A DNA stretch of 44,489 nt, taken from Thermobaculum sp. GTDB taxonomy: Bacteria > Chloroflexota > Chloroflexia > Thermobaculales > Thermobaculaceae. This document shows, in pieces, positions 2,722-15,249 of this stretch (positions within the stretch are counted from its first letter, which is position 1; every line of letters starts with the position of its first letter). The DNA lies in the NCBI GenBank assembly GCA_016782125.1, contig JADDPA010000209.1, forward strand, positions 1 through 44,489, given 5' to 3'. The notes under the pieces are model-generated. The model saw only the letters and a list, made by a program, of their open reading frames with translations, made no database searches and had not been told where the DNA came from. The position numbers and the translations under genes are program-made.

Positions 2722-2751
2722 TTGACGCTCGCTCCCGCTACACTGTTAACT
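2722..2751 (+). promoter_or_regulatory. lepA promoter, back to back with rpsT
   Basis: TTGACG (2722-2727) and TTAACT (2746-2751) are 18 bases apart. The -10 is weak (3 of 6), but the -35 begins one base after the rpsT -35, making a compact divergent promoter pair. Confidence 0.45.
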
Positions 2752-2787
2752 AGTACGAGTAACGCGGTGCACAGCCGAAGGATAGCC

Positions 2788-4605
2788 TTGCTTCAAGATC
2801 ACATCCGGAACTTCTCCATAATCGCCCACATCGACCATGGGAAGTCGACGCTGGCCGACCGCCTTCTTCAGATGACGGGTACGGTCTCGGACCGCGACAT
2901 GAAGGAGCAGCTCCTGGACTCCATGGATCTGGAGCGGGAGAAGGGCATCACAATCAAAGCGCGCGCCGTACGAATGCAATACACCGCAAGCGACGGCGAA
3001 ACGTATGAGCTGAATCTCATCGACACGCCGGGACACGTCGATTTCTCCTATGAAGTCAGTCGCAGTCTCGCGGCGTGTGAGGGTGCGGTACTCGTTGTGG
3101 ACGCCACACAGGGCATCCAGGCACAAACGCTGGCGAACGTCTACCTCGCGCTCGGTTCCGACCTGGAGATCATCCCGGTCGTGAATAAGATCGACCTACC
3201 CAGCGCGGATGTCGCGGCGGTCGCCGGCGAGATCGAGCGGGTCGTCGGATTGCCTGCCGACGACATCATACCTGCGTCGGCCAAGACCGGCACTGGCGCC
3301 AAGGACGTTCTTGAGGCGATTGTGCGGCGGATCCCACCGCCGTCCGGCCAGCAAGATGCTCCCCTGCGCGCGCTGATTTTCGACTCGCACTACGACCCCT
3401 ACAAAGGGGTGATCGCGTACGTTCGCGTCGTGGATGGCCAGGTCCGTCGTGGCGACCGGCTGCGCATGCTTTCGAACGACAAGCTAACGGAAGCCGCCGA
3501 GCTCGGCTACTTTGTCCCCTCTCTCCGCTCTGCCGAATACCTCGGCACGGGCGAAGTTGGGTACATCGCGACTGGACTAAAGGTTGTTGTTGATTGCCGT
3601 GTAGGCGACACCATCACGCTGGAACGCGCGGGCTCGGCGGAGCAACTCCAAGGCTACCAGCCCGTAAAACCAATGGTGTTCGCCGGGATCTTCCCGGTCA
3701 ATGGCGAGGACTATCCGCTGCTGCGCGACGCGCTGGAAAAGCTGACCCTCAATGATGCGTCGCTCACGTACGAGCCGGAAACGAGCGGGGCGCTCGGCTT
3801 CGGGTTCCGCGCGGGCTTTCTCGGCCTGCTACACATGGAGATCGTGCAGGAACGACTGGAACGCGAGTATGACCTTGACCTGCTGACCACTGCGCCCAGC
3901 GTGGAGTATCAGGTGGAGACAACGGACGGGAAGACGACCCCGGTGCATAACCCGACGGAGATGCCAGCGCCACAGCGCACACGGCGCGTGCTCGAGCCCT
4001 GGATGCAGATCTCCATCGTTGCACCGTCGAACCATATCGGTACTGTGATGGAACTCGTATCCAAGCGGCGCGGTGAGTTCTCGAAGATGGAGTATCTGGA
4101 CGAAAACCGGGTCTTACTGACGTACGAGATCCCACTGAGCGAGATCGTCTCGGACTTTTACGACCAGCTCAAGTCGCGCACGCAGGGTTATGCTTCCCTC
4201 GACTACAGCTTCGGAGAGTATCGCTCGGCCGATCTGGTGAAGTTGGACGTGCTAGTTAACGCCCAGCCCGTCGATGCGCTGTCGCTCATCGTGCACCGTG
4301 ACCAGGCGTACAACCGTGGCAAGATGCTGGTCGAGCGGCTGTGTGAGCTGATCCCTCGACAGATGTTCGAGATCCCGGTTCAGGCGGCGATCGGACAAAA
4401 AGTCATCAGCCGCGAGACGATCCGCGCGATGCGGAAGAACGTTATCTCCAAATGTTATGGCGGGGACATCACCCGAAAGCGAAAGCTCCTCGAGAAGCAG
4501 CGTGCCGGCAAAGCCCGAATGAAAACGGTTGGGAACGTGCAGATTCCGCAGGAGGCGTTCATGGCGGTACTCCGGCTGGACGGCGAAGAAGCCGCGCGCC
4601 GATGA
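2788..4605 (+). CDS. lepA: Elongation factor 4 (LepA)
   Basis: A 605-residue translational GTPase. From the N-terminus: P-loop AHIDHGKST (residues 13-21), switch region [26 protein letters not shown], domain II, then the LepA-specific C-terminal part with [30 protein letters not shown] and the tail [18 protein letters not shown]. LepA acts on ribosomes, promoting back-translocation and helping initiation or biogenesis. The TTG at 2788 is preferred over the in-frame TTG at 2722: it has GAAGGA (2777-2782) 5 bases upstream, gives the usual family N-terminus, and the upstream TTG fits a -35 box. Its stop overlaps the next start (ATGA), implying translational coupling. Confidence 0.96.
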
Positions 4606-6116
4606 TCGAAGCCCGCACGCCACACATCACGGTCGTCGGGCTGGGGCCGGGGGATCCCGCTCTCCTCACCGTAGGAGCCAGCCAGAAACTGGCGGCCGCC
4701 ACGGCCGTGTATCTGCGGACTACGCGCCATCCAACCGTGGAAGCACTGGAGCTTGGCGAGCGGCAGCACAGCTTTGACTACCTCTACAATACCCTGCAAA
4801 CCGTCGATGAAGTCTATGAGCGGATTGCGGATACACTTGTGCAGATCGCGCTCAGTAATCCGCTTCACGATGTAGTCTACGCGGTACCCGGCAGCCCTGC
4901 TACCGGAGAACACTCGGTGCTGCTGCTACGTGATCGAGCGCGCACAGCCGGTGTCACCCTCTCGATCCTGCCCGGAATCTCCGCCCTGGAGGCGGCGTTT
5001 GTCGAGTTGGGAATCGACCCCATCGGCGATGGGCTGCAGACGGTGGATGCGCCGGAGCTTGCACACCTGCTTGAACAACGACCGAGTGTGATATCACAGT
5101 TCCTGAATCCAACGCTGCCGATCCTGATAACAGGAGTCTGGCAGCACGGTCTCGCCGCCTCCGTAAAACTGTTCCTCCTAGCGAACTATCCGCCGGACTG
5201 GAGTGTACAGCTCGTTCGTGCCGGTCTGGGTGAGGCGCCGACCCCGGTGGCGCTGGTGGACCTGGACCGCGGTGCCCCCGTGGACCACCTGACCACCCTT
5301 TATGTCCCGCCGCTGCCGCTGGATGAGCCGGGCACCCACTTCTACCAACTCACACACATCGTGGCGCAGCTTCGGGGCACCGACGGTTGCCCGTGGGACC
5401 GCGAGCAGACGCACGACTCGATCAAGCGCAACATGCTGGAGGAGGCGTATGAGGCGGTCGAGGCCCTCGACTCCGGAGATCTGCATGCGTTCGAAGAGGA
5501 GTTGGGCGACGTGCTGATGCAGGTCAGCTTGCAGAGCGAGATCGCCCATTCGGACAGCGACTTCGACATCGGCGATGTTATCCGCGGCCTCTCCGCCAAG
5601 CTGGTGCGGCGGCACCCGCACGTCTTCGGTGATACGGAGGCGAGCTCCGCGTCGGAAGTGCTCGCAAACTGGGCTCAGATCAAGCAGGAGGAGCGAGCGG
5701 ACCGTGGCGAGACACGCCAATCAGCCCTTGACGGGGTTCCCACGGCACTGCCCGCGCTCGCTCGGGCACAGATGATCAGCGGTCGTGCCGCGAAAACCGG
5801 CTTTGATTGGCGCGACACCGCCGAGGTATGGCAAAAGGTGCGCGAGGAGCTTCTTGAGGTCGAGCAGGCACACCCCGACGATCGCCTGGAGGAACTAGGT
5901 GATCTGTTCTTCGTGCTCGTCAACTGGGCACGCTTCCACTCGTTGGAGGCCGAAGAGGCACTGCGGCGCGCCACGCTGAAGTTCGAGGGTCGCTTCCGCG
6001 AACTGGAACAGCGTGTTCGCGACCGAGACCAGGAGATACGGCAGCAATCACCAGAACAACTCGATGCGATTTGGAACGACGTGAAGGGCGCGACCGCCCT
6101 CCCGTCGCACGGCTAG
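4602..6116 (+). CDS. mazG: Tetrapyrrole methylase/MazG fusion (YabN-like) pyrophosphohydrolase
   Basis: A 504-residue fusion. Residues about 8-230 are a tetrapyrrole (corrin/porphyrin) methylase-like domain ([50 protein letters not shown]). The rest holds two MazG repeats. The first has the intact metal motif [10 protein letters not shown]...[11 protein letters not shown] after [14 protein letters not shown]. The second has REELLEVEQ...[11 protein letters not shown]. MazG hydrolyses NTPs, including damaged or non-canonical ones, to NMP and pyrophosphate. B. subtilis YabN has the same architecture; the role of its methylase half is not clear. The ATG at 4602 overlaps the lepA stop (ATGA). The frame is open further upstream, but that part lies inside lepA. 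Confidence 0.9.
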
Positions 6117-6131
6117 ATACCCGAGGGAAAC

Positions 6132-7922
6132 GTGGGGAAAGAGGTTACGTGTGGCGCGCTCACGCGTGCCGATGAGGGGCGAAAGATCACCCTGCACGGC
6201 TGGGTTAACAGCCGGCGTGATCATGGCGGCGTTCTGTTTCTGGACATCCGCGACCGATGGGGTCGAACCCAGACGGTGTTCAACCCTGATAATACCGAGG
6301 CGTTCAGAACCGCGGATGCGGTGAGGAGCGAGTGGGTCGTCGCCATTACCGGCACGGTGCGGCTCCGGCCAGCGGGAACGGAAAACCCACGCATGTCCAC
6401 GGGGGAAGTCGAGCTCGCCGCGGAGACGATAGCAGTGCTGAACGCCGCCGAGCCGCTGCCCTTCGAGATCAGCGACGACTCCTTGCCCGACGAGTCCATC
6501 CGACTCATGTACCGCTATCTCGATCTCCGTCGTCCCCGGATGCTGCACAACCTGGAACTGCGGCACAAGACCGTGAAGTTCATCCGCGACTTCCTCTCCG
6601 AGCGCGACTTCCTGGAAGTAGAGACACCGGTCCTGATGAAAAGCACGCCGGAGGGCGCCCGCGACTACCTCGTGCCCAGCCGGGTGCACGCTGGCGAGTT
6701 CTACGCGCTCCCGCAGTCGCCTCAGCAGCTCAAACAGTTGCTGATGGTAGCGGGCGTGGAGCGCTACTTCCAGATCGCTCGCTGCTTTCGAGATGAAGAT
6801 CTGCGCGCCGACCGGCAGCCCGAGTTTACGCAGCTCGATCTTGAGATGTCGTTTGTCAACCAGGAGGACATCCTCCGACTCGCCGAAGACCTTTTCACTC
6901 AGCTAACTGAAACGGTAACGACTAAGCGGATACAGACCAAGCCCTTCCCTCGGCTCTCGTTCCAGGAGTCGCTGGATCGCTACGGCACGGACAAGCCGGA
7001 CATGCGCTTCGGGTTGGAGATCCACGATGTCACTTCGCGGATGGCACATAGCGGATTTAAGGTGTTCTCCAGTGCGGCAGCGACTGGCGGGACCATCCGC
7101 GGCATCAGCGTCCCCGGGGCATCCACGATGACCCGCAAGCAGATCGACGAACTGACCGGGATGGCACAGAGTTTCGGGGCGAAGGGGTTGGTGTGGATCG
7201 CGGTGGAAGACCTCGATCAGGGCCCCGATGGGTATCGCTCGCCCATAGCAAAGTTCCTGTCAGACGAGGAACTCTCCAGCCTCACCGAAGCGTTGGGTGC
7301 AGGCAACGGCGACCTCCTGCTGGTCGTCGCAGACCAGCGGCGCGTCGCGCTTGATGTGCTGGGACGGCTCCGGAGCCACTTGGGCGGGGCGTTGGGTCTG
7401 ATCGATCCCGAAGTCATGGCGTACGCGTGGGTTGTCGAGCCGCCCCTGTTCGAGTGGAACGAAGACGAGGATCGCTGGGACGCCTCACACCACCCGTTCA
7501 CTGCTCCTATGCCTGGCCAGGAGGAACTGTTGCGGAGCCGACCCGAAGAAGTCAAAGCCGAGGCGTATGACATCGTCTGCAACGGCTATGAGCTCGGGAG
7601 CGGGAGTATACGCATCCATCGCCGTGAGGTGCAGACCGACGCTTTCCGGCTCATGAAGTACACGGACGAGGAGATCGAGGCGCGATTTGGTCACCTCCTG
7701 CGCGCGTTCGAGTATGGCGCCCCACCACACGGTGGCATTGCGCCGGGCATCGACCGCTGGGTCATGTTGCTGGCAGACGAGCCGAACATTCGGGAGGTGA
7801 TCGCTTTCCCGAAGAATCAGGCGGGCGTTGACCTTATGCTCGGAGCACCTGCTCCCGTGGACGAACGCCAACTGCGGGATCTGCACCTGCTGCCTCGCCA
7901 GCCAGTCAAGCCGCAATCCTAG
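6132..7922 (+). CDS. aspS: Aspartyl-tRNA synthetase
   Basis: A 596-residue bacterial-type class II synthetase. An N-terminal OB fold binds the anticodon (ITLHGWVNSRRDHGGVLFLDIRDRWG). The catalytic core has motif 1 near FLEVETPVLMKSTPEGARDYLVPSR, motif 2 RCFRDEDLRADRQPEFTQLD, and motif 3 GGIAPGIDRWVML. A GAD insertion domain lies around residues 290-400. Whether it also charges tRNA-Asn, as in organisms using the GatCAB route, cannot be told from the sequence alone. The GTG start has GAGGG 5 bases before it and begins 15 bases after mazG, so it is probably in the lepA-mazG operon. It converges on murE. Confidence 0.96.
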   Translation: MGKEVTCGALTRADEGRKITLHGWVNSRRDHGGVLFLDIRDRWGRTQTVFNPDNTEAFRTADAVRSEWVVAITGTVRLRPAGTENPRMSTGEVELAAETIAVLNAAEPLPFEISDDSLPDESIRLMYRYLDLRRPRMLHNLELRHKTVKFIRDFLSERDFLEVETPVLMKSTPEGARDYLVPSRVHAGEFYALPQSPQQLKQLLMVAGVERYFQIARCFRDEDLRADRQPEFTQLDLEMSFVNQEDILRLAEDLFTQLTETVTTKRIQTKPFPRLSFQESLDRYGTDKPDMRFGLEIHDVTSRMAHSGFKVFSSAAATGGTIRGISVPGASTMTRKQIDELTGMAQSFGAKGLVWIAVEDLDQGPDGYRSPIAKFLSDEELSSLTEALGAGNGDLLLVVADQRRVALDVLGRLRSHLGGALGLIDPEVMAYAWVVEPPLFEWNEDEDRWDASHHPFTAPMPGQEELLRSRPEEVKAEAYDIVCNGYELGSGSIRIHRREVQTDAFRLMKYTDEEIEARFGHLLRAFEYGAPPHGGIAPGIDRWVMLLADEPNIREVIAFPKNQAGVDLMLGAPAPVDERQLRDLHLLPRQPVKPQS

Positions 7923-7965
7923 CGCTCAGGCGCTTGCGGCAAGCAGGTTAGGACGACGCCCCAGA

Positions 7966-9471
7966 CTACGAGAGCGAGCGCAGCAACGAGCGCGCGGTTT
8001 CGGCCTCGCTCCATGGAAGGGAGCGATCGGACAGCTCGATGGACGTTTCATGCCCCTTGCCGGCCAGGAGCACAAGATCGCCTGCCTCGGCGCGCTGGAA
8101 CGCCTTGTGTATTGCCTCCTCGCGATCGGGTACCAAAACGAAGTCCCGGCCCTCCACTGCGCCTTCGCGCACGGCTCCCGCCGCAATCTCTTGAAGGATC
8201 GAGACCTCGTCTTCCCCCCGTGGATCTTCATTGGTCAGGACAGCGAAGTCGGCCCAGCGCGCCGCCACCGCGCCCATTGCCGGCCGCTTCGCACGGTCCC
8301 GCTCGCCCGCGCTGCCAAACACGGCGATCAGCTTCCCCCGCGTGGCGGGTCGCAGTGTTCGTGCGACCTTCTCCAGGGCATCGGCTGTGTGCGCGTAGTC
8401 GACCACCACGCCAAAGGGTTGCCCGGCTTCGATACGCTGCATGCGTCCTGGAACGCCCGGAAAGCTCTCCAGTGCTCGTAATATCGCCGGGAGTGACATC
8501 CCTTGGGACAGGCCCACACAAGCGGCCGCGAGCGCATTGTAGACGTTGTACGCGCCGAGAAGAGGAAGCAACACATCGTCCTGGTCCTGATCATGCCGTA
8601 CCTTGAACCGGATACCCTCCAGCGACTGCTGGATGTCCTGGGCCACGAGATCAGCGTGCCTGCTTGTGCCGTACGTTAGTGTCGGGCCGGCGGTGGCGCG
8701 CAGAAACAGGTCGGCGCTCGGGTCGTCGGCATTGACTATACCGACCCTCTCCGTGCCCTTGTCGTGGCTTCTTCCCAGCATAGTGAAAAGCCGCGCCTTG
8801 TCCAGTCGATACTGCTCGACCGTTCCATGCAGTTCCAAATGCTCACTCGTGACGTTGGTCAGCACCGCCACGTCGTACGCCACGTCGTTCAGGCGAGACA
8901 GCCGCAAGCCGTGCGACGAGCTCTCGACGACGGCGTGTGTGTTGCCTGCGTCAACCATCTCGCGCAGACGGCGGTGGAGCTCCGGGGGTTGCGGCGTCGT
9001 CGTCCGGTCGGGATTCGAGTGCCGCTGCCGTCCTATTTTCAGGTCGACCGTGCTGACGTATCCGGTGGAGTTGCCGCCCGCCTCCAGCACAGCCGTCGTG
9101 AGGAAGGTCGTCGTCGTCTTGCCATCCGTGCCAGTGATACCCACGACGCGCAGTTCGTGGCTCGGATTGTTCCAGTATGTCGCAGCGAGCCGGCTGAGTG
9201 CCGCGCGGGCGTCACGTACCCGCACCAGTGGGACGGTACCGTTCAAATGGTCGGATAACTCGGTCACAATCGCGGCGGCACCGAGCCGCTCGGCATCACG
9301 GATAAAGCGAGCACCGTCCACATGATCGCCGGGCAGCGCGACGAAGATTTCGCCCGGTTGAAGACGCCGGGTGTCGGAGCTGACACCGGTCACCATCGTA
9401 GCCGGAAGCGGGTCCGGGAAAGATGCGTCGTCGAGTGCGGCAAGCAAGGTTCGCAGGCTAGTCGCGATCAC
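7966..9471 (-). CDS. murE: UDP-MurNAc-tripeptide ligase MurE
   Basis: A 501-residue Mur ligase. The N-terminal UDP-binding domain has SSDTRRLQPGEIFVALPG, the ATPase domain has P-loop GITGTDGKTTTT (residues 111-122), and HAVVESSSHGL and NVTSEHLELHGTVEQY follow. It adds the third residue to UDP-MurNAc-L-Ala-D-Glu in the cytoplasm. The C-terminal specificity motif, DNPR in meso-diaminopimelate enzymes, reads EDPR here (TNEDPRGEDE, about residue 413), so the third residue may not be meso-DAP; ornithine or lysine are candidates. The start is GTG with AAGGAG 8 bases upstream, 2 bases after the stop of the FemX-like gene. It is the last gene of a minus-strand wall operon. Confidence 0.94.
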   Translation of the reverse strand: MIATSLRTLLAALDDASFPDPLPATMVTGVSSDTRRLQPGEIFVALPGDHVDGARFIRDAERLGAAAIVTELSDHLNGTVPLVRVRDARAALSRLAATYWNNPSHELRVVGITGTDGKTTTTFLTTAVLEAGGNSTGYVSTVDLKIGRQRHSNPDRTTTPQPPELHRRLREMVDAGNTHAVVESSSHGLRLSRLNDVAYDVAVLTNVTSEHLELHGTVEQYRLDKARLFTMLGRSHDKGTERVGIVNADDPSADLFLRATAGPTLTYGTSRHADLVAQDIQQSLEGIRFKVRHDQDQDDVLLPLLGAYNVYNALAAACVGLSQGMSLPAILRALESFPGVPGRMQRIEAGQPFGVVVDYAHTADALEKVARTLRPATRGKLIAVFGSAGERDRAKRPAMGAVAARWADFAVLTNEDPRGEDEVSILQEIAAGAVREGAVEGRDFVLVPDREEAIHKAFQRAEAGDLVLLAGKGHETSIELSDRSLPWSEAETARSLLRSLS

Positions 9472-9473
9472 GA

Positions 9474-10553
9474 CTATAGCTCCTTGCTTTTGCGCAGGTG
9501 GGACCAGAGCCGATACAGCAGACGGTTATACGGGAAGTCATACGCGCCAGTGTATCGGCTGTGCTCGCCGCCGAAGCCCTGCTTGAAGCGATAAACGCCC
9601 CAAAGCCCCGTGCGAACGTTCTTGTCTTCCAGTGCTTCCCTCTCGTCCGTCCCGTCGGCCACTTGCTCGGGTATGCCCCACATGTCATAGCGTGAGCAGC
9701 CGTGCTCCATGCACCACTGGATCGCTCGCCACTGCAACAGGTACGTTGGCATCTCCCGGCGGTGCTCATTCGAGGACGCGCCATACATGTAAATGCCCTC
9801 AGCCCCGTACGCGAACACCATGATGCCCGCGACAATCACGTCATTAAACTCCGCAAGCAAGAGCTCACCCTGCCCTCGGCTTCGGAACGCTTCCAGTACA
9901 TCGCGGTAATAGGCTTGGTACCGCACTGGAAACCCGTCGCGTTCACCCGTCTCGACCATCAGTTCGTGGAAGCGCGCCATATCTTCCGCGCCGCTAACTG
10001 CACGGATCTGCACCCCTCTCCGCTCCGCAAGGCGGACGTTGTAGCGCGTCTTGCCTTTCATCCGGGCCAGCACCGCCTCCTCCCCGCCATCGAGCGGGAT
10101 GTGCAGAGTGGCGCGCGCCTGCACCGTATGCGGGCTCCGCAGAAATCCGTGGAACCTCAGGAATGGCTCGACGGCGGAGCCAGCAAGCTCGTTTGGCTCC
10201 AGCTTTAGGAACACCCCGTGGCGCTGAGTGCCCAGCCGGTGCATAGCTTCTAGGAGCGGGGCGTACAGTTCCGGCCGGTCTGCCGCGACCACCGGACCGC
10301 GAGGGACGTAGGGCAGGGAAAAGCCCGCAATGGAACGGATCAGCACCTGCGCTCCGGCTAGTATCTCGCCGTCGATAGACAGTGCGAGACGCACCGGCTG
10401 CCAACCATAGGCGCGCTTGAACTCGCCCCAGGCCCAGCTCTGAAGGATATGACCGTTCGGTGCGCCGGACACGAAGGCGTCCCACGCCGACTCCTCGCCT
10501 GGACCAAGCTCGCGGATGATTGCCGTGCGCGGTGCGATGGCTACCACGCACAC
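9474..10553 (-). CDS. FemX/FemAB-family aminoacyltransferase (peptidoglycan bridge)
   Basis: A 359-residue protein of the Fem family: W-A-W-G-E-FKRAYGW near residue 42, LPYVPRGPVV, FLKLEPNE, then a second GNAT-like half with MKGKTRYNVRLAERRGV and the C-terminal YDMWGIPE and YTGAYDFPYNRLLYRLW blocks. These are the conserved FemX/FmhB landmarks. Fem enzymes add amino acids from aminoacyl-tRNA to the third-residue side chain of lipid II or its precursor. Adjacency to murE, which installs that residue, supports this role. The start is GTG at 10553 (or GTG at 10547); neither has a good ribosome site. Specificity (Gly, Ala or Ser) cannot be read from the sequence. Confidence 0.87.
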   Translation of the reverse strand: MCVVAIAPRTAIIRELGPGEESAWDAFVSGAPNGHILQSWAWGEFKRAYGWQPVRLALSIDGEILAGAQVLIRSIAGFSLPYVPRGPVVAADRPELYAPLLEAMHRLGTQRHGVFLKLEPNELAGSAVEPFLRFHGFLRSPHTVQARATLHIPLDGGEEAVLARMKGKTRYNVRLAERRGVQIRAVSGAEDMARFHELMVETGERDGFPVRYQAYYRDVLEAFRSRGQGELLLAEFNDVIVAGIMVFAYGAEGIYMYGASSNEHRREMPTYLLQWRAIQWCMEHGCSRYDMWGIPEQVADGTDEREALEDKNVRTGLWGVYRFKQGFGGEHSRYTGAYDFPYNRLLYRLWSHLRKSKEL

Positions 10554-10565
10554 CAGCCGAGAGTT

Positions 10566-11477
10566 CTACGCGTCATACCCACCCGCATACGTGGCCTCGC
10601 CGAGTGCCTCCTCGGCCGCCTCGCAAACATCCTCCGCATCGGATTGCGTAAGCAACTCGAGCTTCTCCCTTGCGAGCTTGGAGCCGATCTGACCCAAGGC
10701 CCAGATGGCAGTTGCGCGTACTTCGGGATCCGATCCGTCTGAGAGCGCTATGAGCTGTGGCACTGTCTCCTGCAGGCCCATCTCCCCGGCGGCGCGCGCA
10801 GCCTGGAAACGAATGCCCGCATCCTCGTTCTCTAGCTCGTCTGCCACCGCATCACGCCACCGCATGTCCATGCTTCGGCCCATGGCGACAACGGCACTCT
10901 CCTGTTCCGGCTCCTCACCCTCCCGGTACAGCCGCCCGATGAAGTCGTGTACGAGGCTATCGTCGTGGAAATACGCAAGTGCCTCGACCAATCGCCGCTG
11001 CACCTCGGTACCGTCGCTAGTGTCGACGAGTGCCCGCCGCAAGACCTCCTGTAACTGGTCCGCGCGGGGACTGGGCAGGTCACCCGCCGCCGCCAGGAAG
11101 GCAAAGCGACCGAGAGCCGTCGCGGCGGCCGCACGCACTGCGGGATCACTGTCCGTGACCACAAGCACCTGGAGCCGCTCCAGCAACTCGGTCCCTTCGT
11201 CCTCCCACAGACCTTCTATCGCCGCCTGCCGAACCTCTGGACTAGGATCGTCCAGCCCAAACCGGAAGATCGACTTGAAGTTCAACTCGACGTTGTCCTC
11301 GGCCAGCGAGCGCAACATCGTCAGCAGACGATGACGGCGCTCCAACGGTGCGGCGAGCCAAGCCTCGCTCTGCCTCCGCAACTCAGCAGCCGATGTATCA
11401 GAGAGCGCGGTCAGCTTGGTCGCACACATCGGCTCTGCGCTCTCCAGTACGTTCCCTAAGGGTTCCGGTAAGGTCAC
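10566..11477 (-). CDS. HEAT-repeat protein (PBS-lyase type)
   Basis: A 303-residue protein made almost wholly of paired helices. Several repeats of the PBS-lyase HEAT type can be seen, for example SPEVRQAAIEGLWEDEG, DPAVRAAAATALGRFAF, DAGIRFQAARAAGEMGL and DPEVRATAIWALGQIG, each with the D/P-x-V-R-x-A-A core. Such solenoids are protein-binding scaffolds; no catalytic residues are visible. GTG start with GGAG 9 bases upstream. It lies 14 bases after the 588-aa gene and 12 before the FemX-like gene, so it is probably co-transcribed with wall genes. Its partner is unknown. Confidence 0.85.
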   Translation of the reverse strand: MTLPEPLGNVLESAEPMCATKLTALSDTSAAELRRQSEAWLAAPLERRHRLLTMLRSLAEDNVELNFKSIFRFGLDDPSPEVRQAAIEGLWEDEGTELLERLQVLVVTDSDPAVRAAAATALGRFAFLAAAGDLPSPRADQLQEVLRRALVDTSDGTEVQRRLVEALAYFHDDSLVHDFIGRLYREGEEPEQESAVVAMGRSMDMRWRDAVADELENEDAGIRFQAARAAGEMGLQETVPQLIALSDGSDPEVRATAIWALGQIGSKLAREKLELLTQSDAEDVCEAAEEALGEATYAGGYDA

Positions 11478-11491
11478 GATGTTTGTCTCCG

Positions 11492-13258
11492 CTACGGCCG
11501 GTACGCGGCGAGTCCGATCGCCGGGTCCTCGAGCGTGAACTGTGGATACTGCCCACTCTCGACGATTGACTCAACATATGACCGCGAGAAGGGCCGGTCG
11601 ATGTTCATCACCGGCGTCAGATCGTCAACGAGCGCGGTCAGCGAACCATCCGTGCCCCGCTCACCGACAAGTTCGAACGCTTGCTGCAAGAGAACATCCG
11701 GGCGCTTTCGCTCACTATCCGAAGCGCGCTTCCGGCCATTGAGTTCGCCCACACGCTCCTCAGACAGCAGATAGGAGGGATCGACCGGGCACTCGTATAC
11801 CACGGGTCCGAAGAACCAGCGCTCGCGCCGGTCATCCCACTGCAGCAGCCGTGACTCCTGCGCGGCCTGACGCTCGTACTCTATCGTAAACTCGTTGCTA
11901 TTCGCGCCCTGTACCAGGGTGAAGATCGCCCCAGGAACCAGAGTACTCTGGAACAACTCCTCGAGTCCGGCGATATGCGTCCCCCGATTGCCGACGCCGA
12001 GACGTAGCTCCGCCATGTGTGTGGCGAAGTTCTGCGGATCCTGTATGCGCAGTATCACGACCGGCTGGTCTTCGAGCAGCGGGACAGGCATCATCAACTG
12101 CGTTGCAGGGCCGACCGGCAGCACGCCATTCTCGCTTTCGTACCACGTCAGCACGTGCCGAAGCTGCAAGCGCCCGCTCGCGTCTGCACCACTCGCCGGC
12201 GTCACGGGATCAGCATCGGCCAGCTCCGGGTCGGTCAGGTAACGATAGTCCTGCGCGATTTCGGACGGCTTACGGTACGACTGGCCGATCGGCGGCAGTG
12301 ACGTCGTTGCCCAACGGCGGTCTTCCGCCGTGCCAACAAAGCGGAAGTCCTTTCGCTCGCGCCCAAGCCGGTAGTTGATCGTGAACCGCCATAGGCTGTA
12401 ATCCGCGCCCTGCAGTGGGCGGCGGAGGGCGTCGGAGATCAACTCCTCGTCGGTCAGCGGCTCTCCCCGCTCGTTGATGTAATCTTTTATGTCGCGCAGC
12501 TGCCCCTTGCTGAGGCGCTCAAGTCGATCCTCGATGTAGTAATCCCCGCCGAATCGCACGAAGCGGAAGTCCTCATCCAGGTACTTGCCGAGCAATTCCT
12601 TGAAGGGCCCTGCATGCTTCTGTGCGATCGAGTTGGCGTTTTCGGAGAGGTCGATCACCACGTCGCCAATACGGACGCGTCGATCCGCAGGCTGTGTCTC
12701 GGGTTGTACCTCGGGCTGCTCCTCGACCACCACCCGCTCCGCGACATCAGCAAGCACGGGCTCCTCGTCCGGCTCGAACAGCTCGGGGATGCCGAGGGGG
12801 AAGACGGGGTGGACCGCCTCCGGATACGCCATGATGACGTCCGGCATCTCGCGAGCCACACCACGTACCGCCTTCAACTCATCTTCCGATGGCTCGTGTG
12901 CGCCCTCAAAGAACCGTGTCTTGAACGAATGTGCCGTGAGATCTTCGCCGCCAGCGCTCGGCGGAGTCCCTCGCTTCGTGGTAACGAATACGGGGCCATC
13001 TTCCCCCTGTTCGCGCGCGAACACGTGGTCGTTCAGGGTTAGGCTCGTCTCGATAAGTTCCGGGTAGTTGGTTTCCTTTGTCTGCAGCTCGACGGGATGC
13101 TGTTTCTCAAAAAAGCCCTGCAGGTGCGCCAGACTCTGGCGTATCGGCGCATCGTCCGCGAAGAAACGCGCCCGCGCGGTCAGCAACGCGTACACCGTAC
13201 TCGCCACTGCCTTCTGATCGTCCGTGCCCTGCCACTGAATCTCGACTGATATTGCCAC
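11492..13258 (-). CDS. Conserved-looking protein of unknown function, 588 aa
   Basis: I do not recognise this protein. Three parts can be made out. Residues 1-165 form a mixed fold starting AISVEIQWQGTDDQKAVAS. Residues 170-215 are an acidic, proline-containing linker (FEPDEEPVLADVAERVVVEE). From about 215 there is a helical region, IDLSENANSIAQKHAGPFKELLGKYLD then RLERLSKGQLRDIKDYINERGEPLTDEELISDAL, that reads like winged-helix segments, followed by a beta-rich C-terminus. No signal peptide or membrane helix is present, so it should be cytoplasmic. GTG start with GGGAGG 7 bases upstream. It sits between a 50-aa ORF (3 bases away) and the HEAT, FemX-like and murE genes. The winged-helix idea is a guess from helix and loop pattern. 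Confidence 0.75.
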   Translation of the reverse strand: MAISVEIQWQGTDDQKAVASTVYALLTARARFFADDAPIRQSLAHLQGFFEKQHPVELQTKETNYPELIETSLTLNDHVFAREQGEDGPVFVTTKRGTPPSAGGEDLTAHSFKTRFFEGAHEPSEDELKAVRGVAREMPDVIMAYPEAVHPVFPLGIPELFEPDEEPVLADVAERVVVEEQPEVQPETQPADRRVRIGDVVIDLSENANSIAQKHAGPFKELLGKYLDEDFRFVRFGGDYYIEDRLERLSKGQLRDIKDYINERGEPLTDEELISDALRRPLQGADYSLWRFTINYRLGRERKDFRFVGTAEDRRWATTSLPPIGQSYRKPSEIAQDYRYLTDPELADADPVTPASGADASGRLQLRHVLTWYESENGVLPVGPATQLMMPVPLLEDQPVVILRIQDPQNFATHMAELRLGVGNRGTHIAGLEELFQSTLVPGAIFTLVQGANSNEFTIEYERQAAQESRLLQWDDRRERWFFGPVVYECPVDPSYLLSEERVGELNGRKRASDSERKRPDVLLQQAFELVGERGTDGSLTALVDDLTPVMNIDRPFSRSYVESIVESGQYPQFTLEDPAIGLAAYRP

Positions 13259-13261
13259 TGG

Positions 13262-13414
13262 CTACCTCCCCTGCTCGCCTGAAACGCGCTGAACGACGAT
13301 ACCGATGTACCAGTCCGTGAGCGTATCCAGCGTCTGAGATGCACCAACCCGAACGAGCCGATCCACCACTTCGCGAATATCAGCCTCTTCGATTCTTAAC
13401 TCTTCTGGTTCCAT
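13262..13414 (-). CDS. Small acidic protein of unknown function, 50 aa
   Basis: A short frame starting at ATG 13414 with GGAAGGA 3 bases upstream and ending 3 bases before the 588-aa gene. The product is acidic at its N-terminus (MEPEELRIEEADIREVVDRL) and looks like one amphipathic helix followed by TDWYIGIVVQRV. The frame stays open to 13468, but the ATG with its strong ribosome site is the better start. The tight spacing suggests co-translation with the 588-aa protein. No family recognised. Confidence 0.6.
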   Translation of the reverse strand: MEPEELRIEEADIREVVDRLVRVGASQTLDTLTDWYIGIVVQRVSGEQGR

Positions 13415-13533
13415 AAATCCTTCCAATTGGCCATCCGCGGTCGTACACACTGGCCGATACTGCAGCACAAAAGCAACCAGGCTGCGTCAGCGGTACGCTT
13501 ACAAAGCCGTTCTGGCACAGAATATTTGGCCCA

Positions 13534-13542
13534 ATTATACCA
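13534..13542 (-). promoter_or_regulatory. Extended -10 promoter for the downstream wall operon
   Basis: TGGTATAAT on the minus strand, just after the nadK stop. It gives an mRNA start near 13527 and a leader of about 110 bases before the 50-aa ORF. No clear -35. The break in gene spacing here (130 bases, when the others are under 15) supports a separate transcript. Confidence 0.55.
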
Positions 13543-13543
13543 G

Positions 13544-14419
13544 TCAGGCCTTCGCGCGTTCCACGTCTGTGCCTGAGGGACCGTGCGTGCGATCGAGATC
13601 ATGTTGCAGGCGTGCGACGAGTTGCGTGTAGAACTGACTCGGCGGGGTCATGCGAACGAAGCTGGCTCGTACGTCGCTCGTCGTGATGAGCAGCCGGTCG
13701 CCGAGCGAAAAGGTCGTGTCGACTTGTCCGTCTACGGTAAGCGATGCGTCCTGCGAGCGGACCAGCTTGAGCTCCACCCGCGATTCGGGCGAGAGTATCA
13801 CGGACTGGACGATACTCAGATGAGCGGCGATCGGCGTCAGGGTAATGTTCTGCAACTCGGGCGCGAGGATCGGTCCGCCGGCAGCGAGTGAGTATGCCGT
13901 GGAGCCGGTCGGCGTAGCCGCAATAATCCCGTCTGCCACATAGTTCGCGAGGTGCGAGTCATCCACCGAGACGGAGATCCAGAGCGAGCGAGGCGAACGC
14001 CCCCGCGCCAGTACGGCGTCGTTGAGCGCGGTATGCTCGCCGTGGGGGCGGCCGTCGCGCTCGTGAACCACACACAACATGCCCCGACGTTCGATGCGAT
14101 AGTCACCGTTCAGAAGCCGCTGAATCGAGTCATCGAGTTGTGCCGGCGCAATCTCGGCCAGGAAACCGAGCCGCCCAGCAGCGATGCCCAACACTGGAAT
14201 GCCCTCAAGCACCGCCATGCGTTGTGCACGCAACACCGTGCCATCTCCACCAACCGCGATCAGAAGCTCCACATCGGCAGGCAGCCTGCGGTCCTTGCCG
14301 CGCTCGCGCTGTGTTCGCAGTGTGTGAACCCCGGCCGCGCGCAGCATCTGCTCCAACCGCTGTGCGATCTCCGCAGCCTCTTTGCCCCTCGGATGCGTCA
14401 GGAGTGCTACCTTTTTCAG
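13544..14419 (-). CDS. nadK: NAD kinase
   Basis: A 291-residue ATP-NAD kinase with the catalytic GGDGT loop, the NDAVLARG motif, the YVADGIIAATPTGSTAYSLAAGG block and a VDGQVDTTF strand. It phosphorylates NAD to NADP in the cytoplasm. The usual family N-terminus (KKVALLTHPRGKEAAEIAQRL) is encoded upstream of the first TTG at 14356, and the only possible start is CTG at 14419-14417. That CTG overlaps the tlyA stop as CTGA, with a G-rich ribosome site (GGGGGGG) 7 bases before it. A start at TTG 14356 would remove the first beta strand of the fold. I favour CTG; expression coupled to tlyA. Confidence 0.9.
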   Translation of the reverse strand: MKKVALLTHPRGKEAAEIAQRLEQMLRAAGVHTLRTQRERGKDRRLPADVELLIAVGGDGTVLRAQRMAVLEGIPVLGIAAGRLGFLAEIAPAQLDDSIQRLLNGDYRIERRGMLCVVHERDGRPHGEHTALNDAVLARGRSPRSLWISVSVDDSHLANYVADGIIAATPTGSTAYSLAAGGPILAPELQNITLTPIAAHLSIVQSVILSPESRVELKLVRSQDASLTVDGQVDTTFSLGDRLLITTSDVRASFVRMTPPSQFYTQLVARLQHDLDRTHGPSGTDVERAKA

Positions 14420-15249
14420 CTGTCCGCCCCCCCGTGTCGTGACTGCCTGATCGTGTCGGCTTCACGCAGCGCGGCTACTATAAGTCGATCCGAGCCTTCG
14501 ATGTCAGTAGTCCCGTCTGCACACCACGCCAGGAACTCCACGTTTCCGGCAGGTCCGAGTATAGGCGATGCGGTGAGCCCCCGAAGCGTCAACCCGAGGG
14601 ACGCGACGTGTGCCGCGATCTTTTCCAGGACGCGCCGGTGAATCGCCGGATCCCGCACGACGCCGTTCTTGCCAACCTCCGCCCGCCCAGCCTCGAACTG
14701 CGGCTTTACGAGAAGAACGTAACCCGTGCCCGGACCGGCAAACTGACGCATGGCCGGCATTACCAGGGTAAGCGATATGAAAGACAGATCCGCCGTGACG
14801 ATCTGGACCGCTTCCGGCAGCTCGCGGACGTATCGAATGTTCGTACGCTCCATTGTGACGACGCGCGGATCGGTGCGAAGCTTCCAATCGAGTTGACCAT
14901 AGCCAACGTCAACCGCATATACCCGCGCCGCGCCGCGCTGAAGCAACACATCCGTGAATCCTCCGGTCGAGGCGCCGGCGTCGAGTGCGGTAAGGCCTGT
15001 GACATCAATACGAAACGTGTCCAGCGCATGAGCCAGCTTGTATCCTCCGCGGCTCACATATGCGTCGGGCCGGTCACATTCGACCTGCGCCTCCGCCGCC
15101 ACGAGAGTGCTCGCCTTGTCGATGCGCTGGTTATCGACGCGGACCTGACCGGCAAGGATCAGCGCTCGTGCCTTCTCACGGCTCTCCGTTAGCCCTCGCT
15201 CCACAAGCAGGGTATCCAGACGCTGTCGGCCCAACTTCACGTCCGTCAT
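14416..15249 (-). CDS. tlyA: TlyA-family rRNA 2'-O-methyltransferase / hemolysin-like
   Basis: A 277-residue protein with an N-terminal S4 RNA-binding domain (RQRLDTLLVERGLTESREKA, GQVRVDNQRIDK) and an FtsJ-like methyltransferase domain (YVSRGGYKLAHALD, LDAGASTGGFTDVLLQRGA, YAVDVGYGQLDWKLR, LVKPQFEAGR). TlyA of mycobacteria methylates the 2'-OH of C1409 in 16S rRNA and C1920 in 23S rRNA and sets capreomycin sensitivity. Others in the family are of short form and act on 23S only. ATG at 15249 overlaps the ruvC stop (ATGA). tlyA-nadK adjacency is common in bacteria. Confidence 0.92.
   Translation of the reverse strand: MTDVKLGRQRLDTLLVERGLTESREKARALILAGQVRVDNQRIDKASTLVAAEAQVECDRPDAYVSRGGYKLAHALDTFRIDVTGLTALDAGASTGGFTDVLLQRGAARVYAVDVGYGQLDWKLRTDPRVVTMERTNIRYVRELPEAVQIVTADLSFISLTLVMPAMRQFAGPGTGYVLLVKPQFEAGRAEVGKNGVVRDPAIHRRVLEKIAAHVASLGLTLRGLTASPILGPAGNVEFLAWCADGTTDIEGSDRLIVAALREADTIRQSRHGGADS

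Follow-up and report, generated by a model that had tools for sequence, protein, structure and literature searches.

Two adjacent genes of Thermobaculum sp., here named p50 and X588, may well encode the two subunits of a core factor of the Chloroflexota that acts in DNA binding or transcription, with a HEAT-repeat protein encoded immediately downstream as a possible partner. Both genes lie on the minus strand of contig JADDPA010000209.1, of which the entire stretch of 44,489 nucleotides was analysed (the window), and both are intact: p50 (13262..13414, ATG start) specifies 50 amino acids, and X588 (11492..13258, GTG start) specifies 588.

Conservation and distribution of p50 and X588

The p50 and X588 genes are both real and under purifying selection, with dN/dS ratios against sister genomes of 0.14-0.30 and 0.08-0.11, respectively, and the homologues of each span many families. 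The sequence-only reading had described the 588-amino-acid protein as unrecognised, and the family libraries agree: X588 has no match to a sequence family in Pfam, NCBIfam, PHROGs, PADLOC or the PDB, while p50 gave chance-level matches at most in Pfam and NCBIfam and nothing useful in PHROGs, PADLOC or PDB sequence searches. Single-sequence and profile searches of the PDB and Pfam likewise returned chance-level matches at most, and literature searches for B3 domains of Chloroflexi and for nucleoid proteins of Chloroflexota gave nothing relevant and no description of p50-X588.

The distribution of X588 was determined from samples of Chloroflexota genomes, collections of plasmids and viral contigs, and a scan of contigs from close relatives. 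Of 101 sampled relatives, 98 have the gene, among them all 79 with high-quality genomes; it is in practice single-copy, genomes with two rows of matches being mostly split alignments of one open frame. The X588 sequence by itself identified homologues in 43 genomes of a 301-genome sample of the phylum, and a profile of 38 X588 homologues (A1) identified them in 68 genomes of the same sample; the genomes gained with the profile come from further families of the phylum, and most have a homologue of ~530-540 amino acids. A second profile (A2), built from these shorter homologues of a second class, which is probably Anaerolineae, found the X gene in 230 of 249 genomes of that class (155/162 high-quality genomes), and comparison of A1 with A2 aligned 355 columns with a probability of 99.7 (E = 4.9e-26). 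Plasmid collections contain no copies of either the window's class or the second class, and viral contigs contain none detectable with the second-class profile, an absence that fits a housekeeping gene. Having no family name, yet kept as a single copy in most genomes of two large bacterial classes, X588 is likely to have a basic role. Two public records titled 'Rubrobacter sp.' (L034 and L035) also carry an X588 gene, at 59-69% identity; these titles look wrong.

Pairing and fusion of p50 with X588

Starting from five p50-like sequences, a profile search located a small open reading frame upstream of X588 in all but two of 63 loci (61); of the two misses, one is at the edge of a contig, and the other, an artefact of the range searched, was recovered in a wider search. 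The wider search placed p50 directly upstream of X588 in 40/40 distinct genomes, at distances of -4 to 144 bp, and as the sole match per locus (4619 open reading frames tested in the 40 genomes); the profile had been trained on most of these sequences, though not on the p50 of locus L023, which was matched with E = 4.8e-22. In the second class, the p50 profile found no free-standing p50 in the vicinity of the gene; its best matches there are the N-terminus of the X homologue itself. Profile-profile comparison of p50 with this N-terminus gave a probability of 93.5 (E = 2.3e-7), equalled by none of 100 column shuffles. Strict pairing and fusion, either of which would be expected of a single complex, were both found, bearing out the earlier proposal that the 50-amino-acid open reading frame is a partner of X588. 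The strongest evidence is the natural fusion: it implies that p50 belongs to X588 as a subunit, which would be in physical contact with it, and it makes the complex directly testable.

A Shine-Dalgarno-like sequence for p50 (GGAAGGA, 13418..13424, minus strand) precedes its start codon, and that of X588 (GGGGAGGT, 13264..13271, minus strand) coincides with the last bases of p50; in ten relatives, the two genes themselves overlap by 4 bases. Thus, translational coupling of p50 with X588 is likely. A weak match of the p50 profile to slices of X588, at residues 232-298 (window positions 12365-12565, probability 50.6), where the second winged helix of X588 starts, suggests that p50 may be half of a winged helix.

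Predicted structure of X588

AlphaFold2 models were obtained for X588 on the 38-sequence alignment (model 1, mean pLDDT 84.4) and for a fused second-class homologue on an independent 33-sequence alignment (model 2, pLDDT 88.3). Model 1 begins with an N-terminal winged helix (residues ~10-96; 12971..13231) of the order H-S-H-H-S-S (H13-29, E39-42, H43-53, H65-75, E81-85, E88-93), followed by an acidic, mostly disordered linker of low pLDDT (residues ~101-193; 12680..12958; pI 4.3 in the query) and by a long helix and second winged helix (residues ~204-345; 12224..12649), where the core common to the second class starts and where model 1 puts the end of the winged helix at ~318. Next is a predicted B3-like pseudobarrel, recognised by Foldseek, with an invariant R425-G426 (residues ~362-490, a range inferred from secondary structure and the B3 profile, with the barrel of model 1 at ~364-488; 11789..12175), and the protein ends in a C-terminal winged helix (residues ~493-588; 11495..11782; H520-531, E540-543, H544-551, H559-567, E574-578, E583-586), all of these features being encoded on the minus strand. 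Model 2 has an SH3-like barrel in place of the first winged helix of the window's class.

Foldseek comparison of model 1 with the PDB placed plant B3 DNA-binding domains at the top (ARF2, ARF1, FUS3, VAL1 and At1g16640), with TMt mostly 0.56-0.69 for isolated B3 domains (0.69 for 1yel, 0.65-0.67 for VAL1), and Fox-type winged helices and the restriction protein LlaJI.R1 among the lower matches. Model 2 matched the B3 domains of FUS3 and VAL1 first (TMt 0.69), and then LlaJI.R1, the NgoAVII R-protein and the delta subunit of RNA polymerase. The best E-values are modest (6.8e-4 for model 1 and 8.6e-3 for model 2). Both models contain a barrel of about seven strands and two short helices in the B3 order. 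A plant B3 profile, made from sequences verified by PDB search, was run against sliding slices of the homologues with 60 shuffles: the B3-like region was the best slice in the second class, with 0/60 shuffles as good, whereas the match in the window's class had the same register and was not significant (5/60 shuffles as good). The Pfam B3 family had no match in the scanned homologues (38 of the window's class and 14 of the second). In predicted fold, X588 has the same type of barrel as the plant factors ARF, VAL1, FUS3, RAV1 and At1g16640 (TMt 0.56-0.69 in both models), but is bacterial and has winged helices rather than plant domains on either side, and in the window's class its barrel is acidic. 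Overall, the models make p50-X588 look like a protein pair of DNA-binding type, with winged helices and a plant-type B3-like domain, rather than a complex of cell-wall enzymes; they include the structure prediction that the sequence-only reading had proposed as a check on the 588-amino-acid protein.

Proposed function and resemblance to the RNA polymerase delta subunit

The mechanism that we propose is a core complex of Chloroflexota chromosomes in which X588 is the large subunit and p50 the small one, and which would act as a housekeeping DNA-binding factor in transcription or in chromosome organisation. The p50 protein would supply a small helical domain, found in the second class at the N-terminus of the X polypeptide itself; the B3-like barrel would read DNA, and the winged helices may hold either DNA or RNA polymerase; in the window's class, the HEAT-repeat protein could be a partner that provides a scaffold. 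Binding to protein instead of DNA is, however, common among winged helices, and no operator or sequence motif was found.

The charge of the protein complicates this proposal. In the window's class, X588 is acidic in every domain (pI 4.7 and net charge -37 for the whole protein, pI 5.0 for the B3-like domain), whereas the B3-like domain of the second class is basic, with a median pI of 10.1; the DNA-contacting face of the domain was judged in both cases by net charge only. Acidic charge is unusual for a DNA binder. It is the chief argument that X588 of the window's class does not itself simply bind DNA, and it keeps a role of RNA polymerase type in play.

The strongest rival explanation, which we nevertheless regard as unlikely, is that X588-p50 is a delta-like factor associated with RNA polymerase, in which a winged helix docks on the polymerase, the acidic stretch competes with nucleic acid, and the barrel is an interaction module rather than a reader of sequence. 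In favour of this rival, X588 is acidic along its whole length and has an acidic, disordered linker after a winged helix, and model 2 matches structures of delta (RpoE, HARE-HTH; 9a6y_A, probability 0.84; 8x6g_E, TMt 0.56 over 84 residues, probability 0.80). However, these matches rank below those to B3 domains, Pfam HARE-HTH/RpoE has no match in the 38 + 14 homologues, and X588 combines several winged helices and a barrel in one chain with a dedicated small subunit. Delta is not known to contain a B3 domain.

The gene run and its neighbourhood

In the window, p50 and X588 are followed on the minus strand by genes encoding the HEAT-repeat protein (10566..11477; Pfam HEAT_2, E = 7.8e-28), a FemX-like ligase (9474..10553; Pfam FemAB, E = 5.1e-53) and MurE (7966..9471; TIGR01085, E = 3.6e-148), identities confirmed by Pfam and NCBIfam; the latter two are neighbours in the run but outside the proposed complex. 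The intergenic gaps are 3, 14, 12 and 2 bases, in agreement with the spacing of 2-14 bases given previously. The accompanying claim that the run stands behind one promoter holds in part: an extended -10-like sequence, TGGTATAAT (13534..13542, minus strand), is located just past nadK as a candidate promoter of the p50-X588-HEAT-femX-murE run, and is also TGGTATAAT in the nearest species and the near-identical TGGTACAAT in the next, but a promoter scan found no full sigma-70 consensus. A weak terminator-like hairpin lies between nadK and p50 (13473-13485, minus strand).

The sequence-only reading had proposed that the two unrecognised proteins and the HEAT-repeat protein form a cytoplasmic complex acting on cell-wall precursor synthesis, and a scaffold of X588, p50 and the HEAT-repeat protein for peptidoglycan precursor synthesis with FemX and MurE would fit the tight spacing in the window and the acidity of the proteins, which suits protein-protein contacts. 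Among 26 loci of the window's class (L036-L052 and L057-L065), HEAT is near X588 in 22, femX in 14 and murE in 17 (in one on the opposite strand), so that the set is kept together in relatives as far as X588 and HEAT are concerned, and less regularly for the other two genes. However, X588 has no HEAT gene nearby in families f3 and f8, and homologues of HEAT, femX and murE were found near X in none of 14 second-class loci. Since the second-class X genes do without these neighbours, a complex for cell-wall precursors is not supported; with the neighbours changing between loci and classes and the predicted folds matching DNA-binding domains, the scaffold was rejected as the main explanation and appears improbable to us. 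The cell-wall genes are accordingly lineage-specific operon company, with the HEAT-repeat protein as the only plausible further partner.

Other neighbours of X588 in the window's family include yebC, ruvC and tlyA, which could be taken to indicate that X588 is a housekeeping factor associated with RNA or the ribosome, its winged helices and barrel binding structured RNA or protein. The SH3-like domain of the second-class homologues, a type also used on RNA or protein, would be in keeping with such a role, but the best structural matches are to DNA-binding B3 domains and no RNA-binding family was matched, and we give this explanation little credence.

Several further arrangements were observed around the X genes. 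In 8 of the 14 second-class loci, the X homologue is followed by a gene for a protein of ~145 amino acids with a winged-helix-like C-terminus (L101:9294-9728, L098:7743-8189, L099:9532-9966 and others) and the motif IDFDWW...IDWVDP...ILRTLxGxRVYKGIRP; in some of these loci, genes for Hsp20-like and Lon proteins come next. The murE end of the run in the window is convergent with aspS-mazG-lepA (2722-9471), an arrangement kept in 5 to 9 loci of the class (clusters C4, C5 and C7). Between HEAT and murE, locus L036 has three FemX-like genes (9561-14482) where the window has one. The MurE of the window (7966-9471) contains the sequence TNEDPRGED, a variant of the motif from which the diamino acid used can usually be told.

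Relationship to B3 domains of restriction enzymes and to other core DNA-binding proteins

In bacteria, B3 domains have been documented in restriction enzymes such as BfiI and NgoAVII, where they read the target (PMC4267653). LlaJI.R1 and the NgoAVII R-protein are among the structural matches of X588, whose predicted barrel is of the type of these proteins and of EcoRII. That X588 is a former restriction or defence protein retaining a B3-like target-recognition domain is nevertheless very improbable, as no nuclease family was matched in X588 or the scanned homologues, no nuclease or motor domain was found, and the gene is a nearly universal single-copy core gene; a defence system was rejected for lack of any PADLOC match and of plasmid or viral copies, and a library of viral structures likewise yielded no match below 1e-3.

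A broader proposal, which we offer tentatively as a possibility less probable than the core factor itself, is that p50-X588 represents a class of factors, so far undescribed, for general transcription or chromosome architecture in bacteria, ancestral to at least two classes of Chloroflexota. Its B3-type reader of DNA would lie outside restriction systems and make it a prokaryotic counterpart, with a housekeeping role, related to the plant B3 regulators. An origin of plant B3 domains from a restriction enzyme (EcoRII) has been proposed, and was described as being without other evidence (PMC2688026). If the B3-like reading of X588 holds, its B3-type domain would belong to a core protein of bacteria and not to a restriction enzyme, a point of relevance to the origin of the plant regulators.

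HU and MraZ, both core bacterial DNA-binding proteins, co-occur with X588 in relatives, each being present in 24 of 26. X588 was therefore rejected as a replacement for HU. Replacement of MraZ in first place in a division operon was rejected as well, since the run in the window also ends at murE. Because both proteins are present, X588 fills no obvious vacancy and would be an addition to them rather than a substitute.
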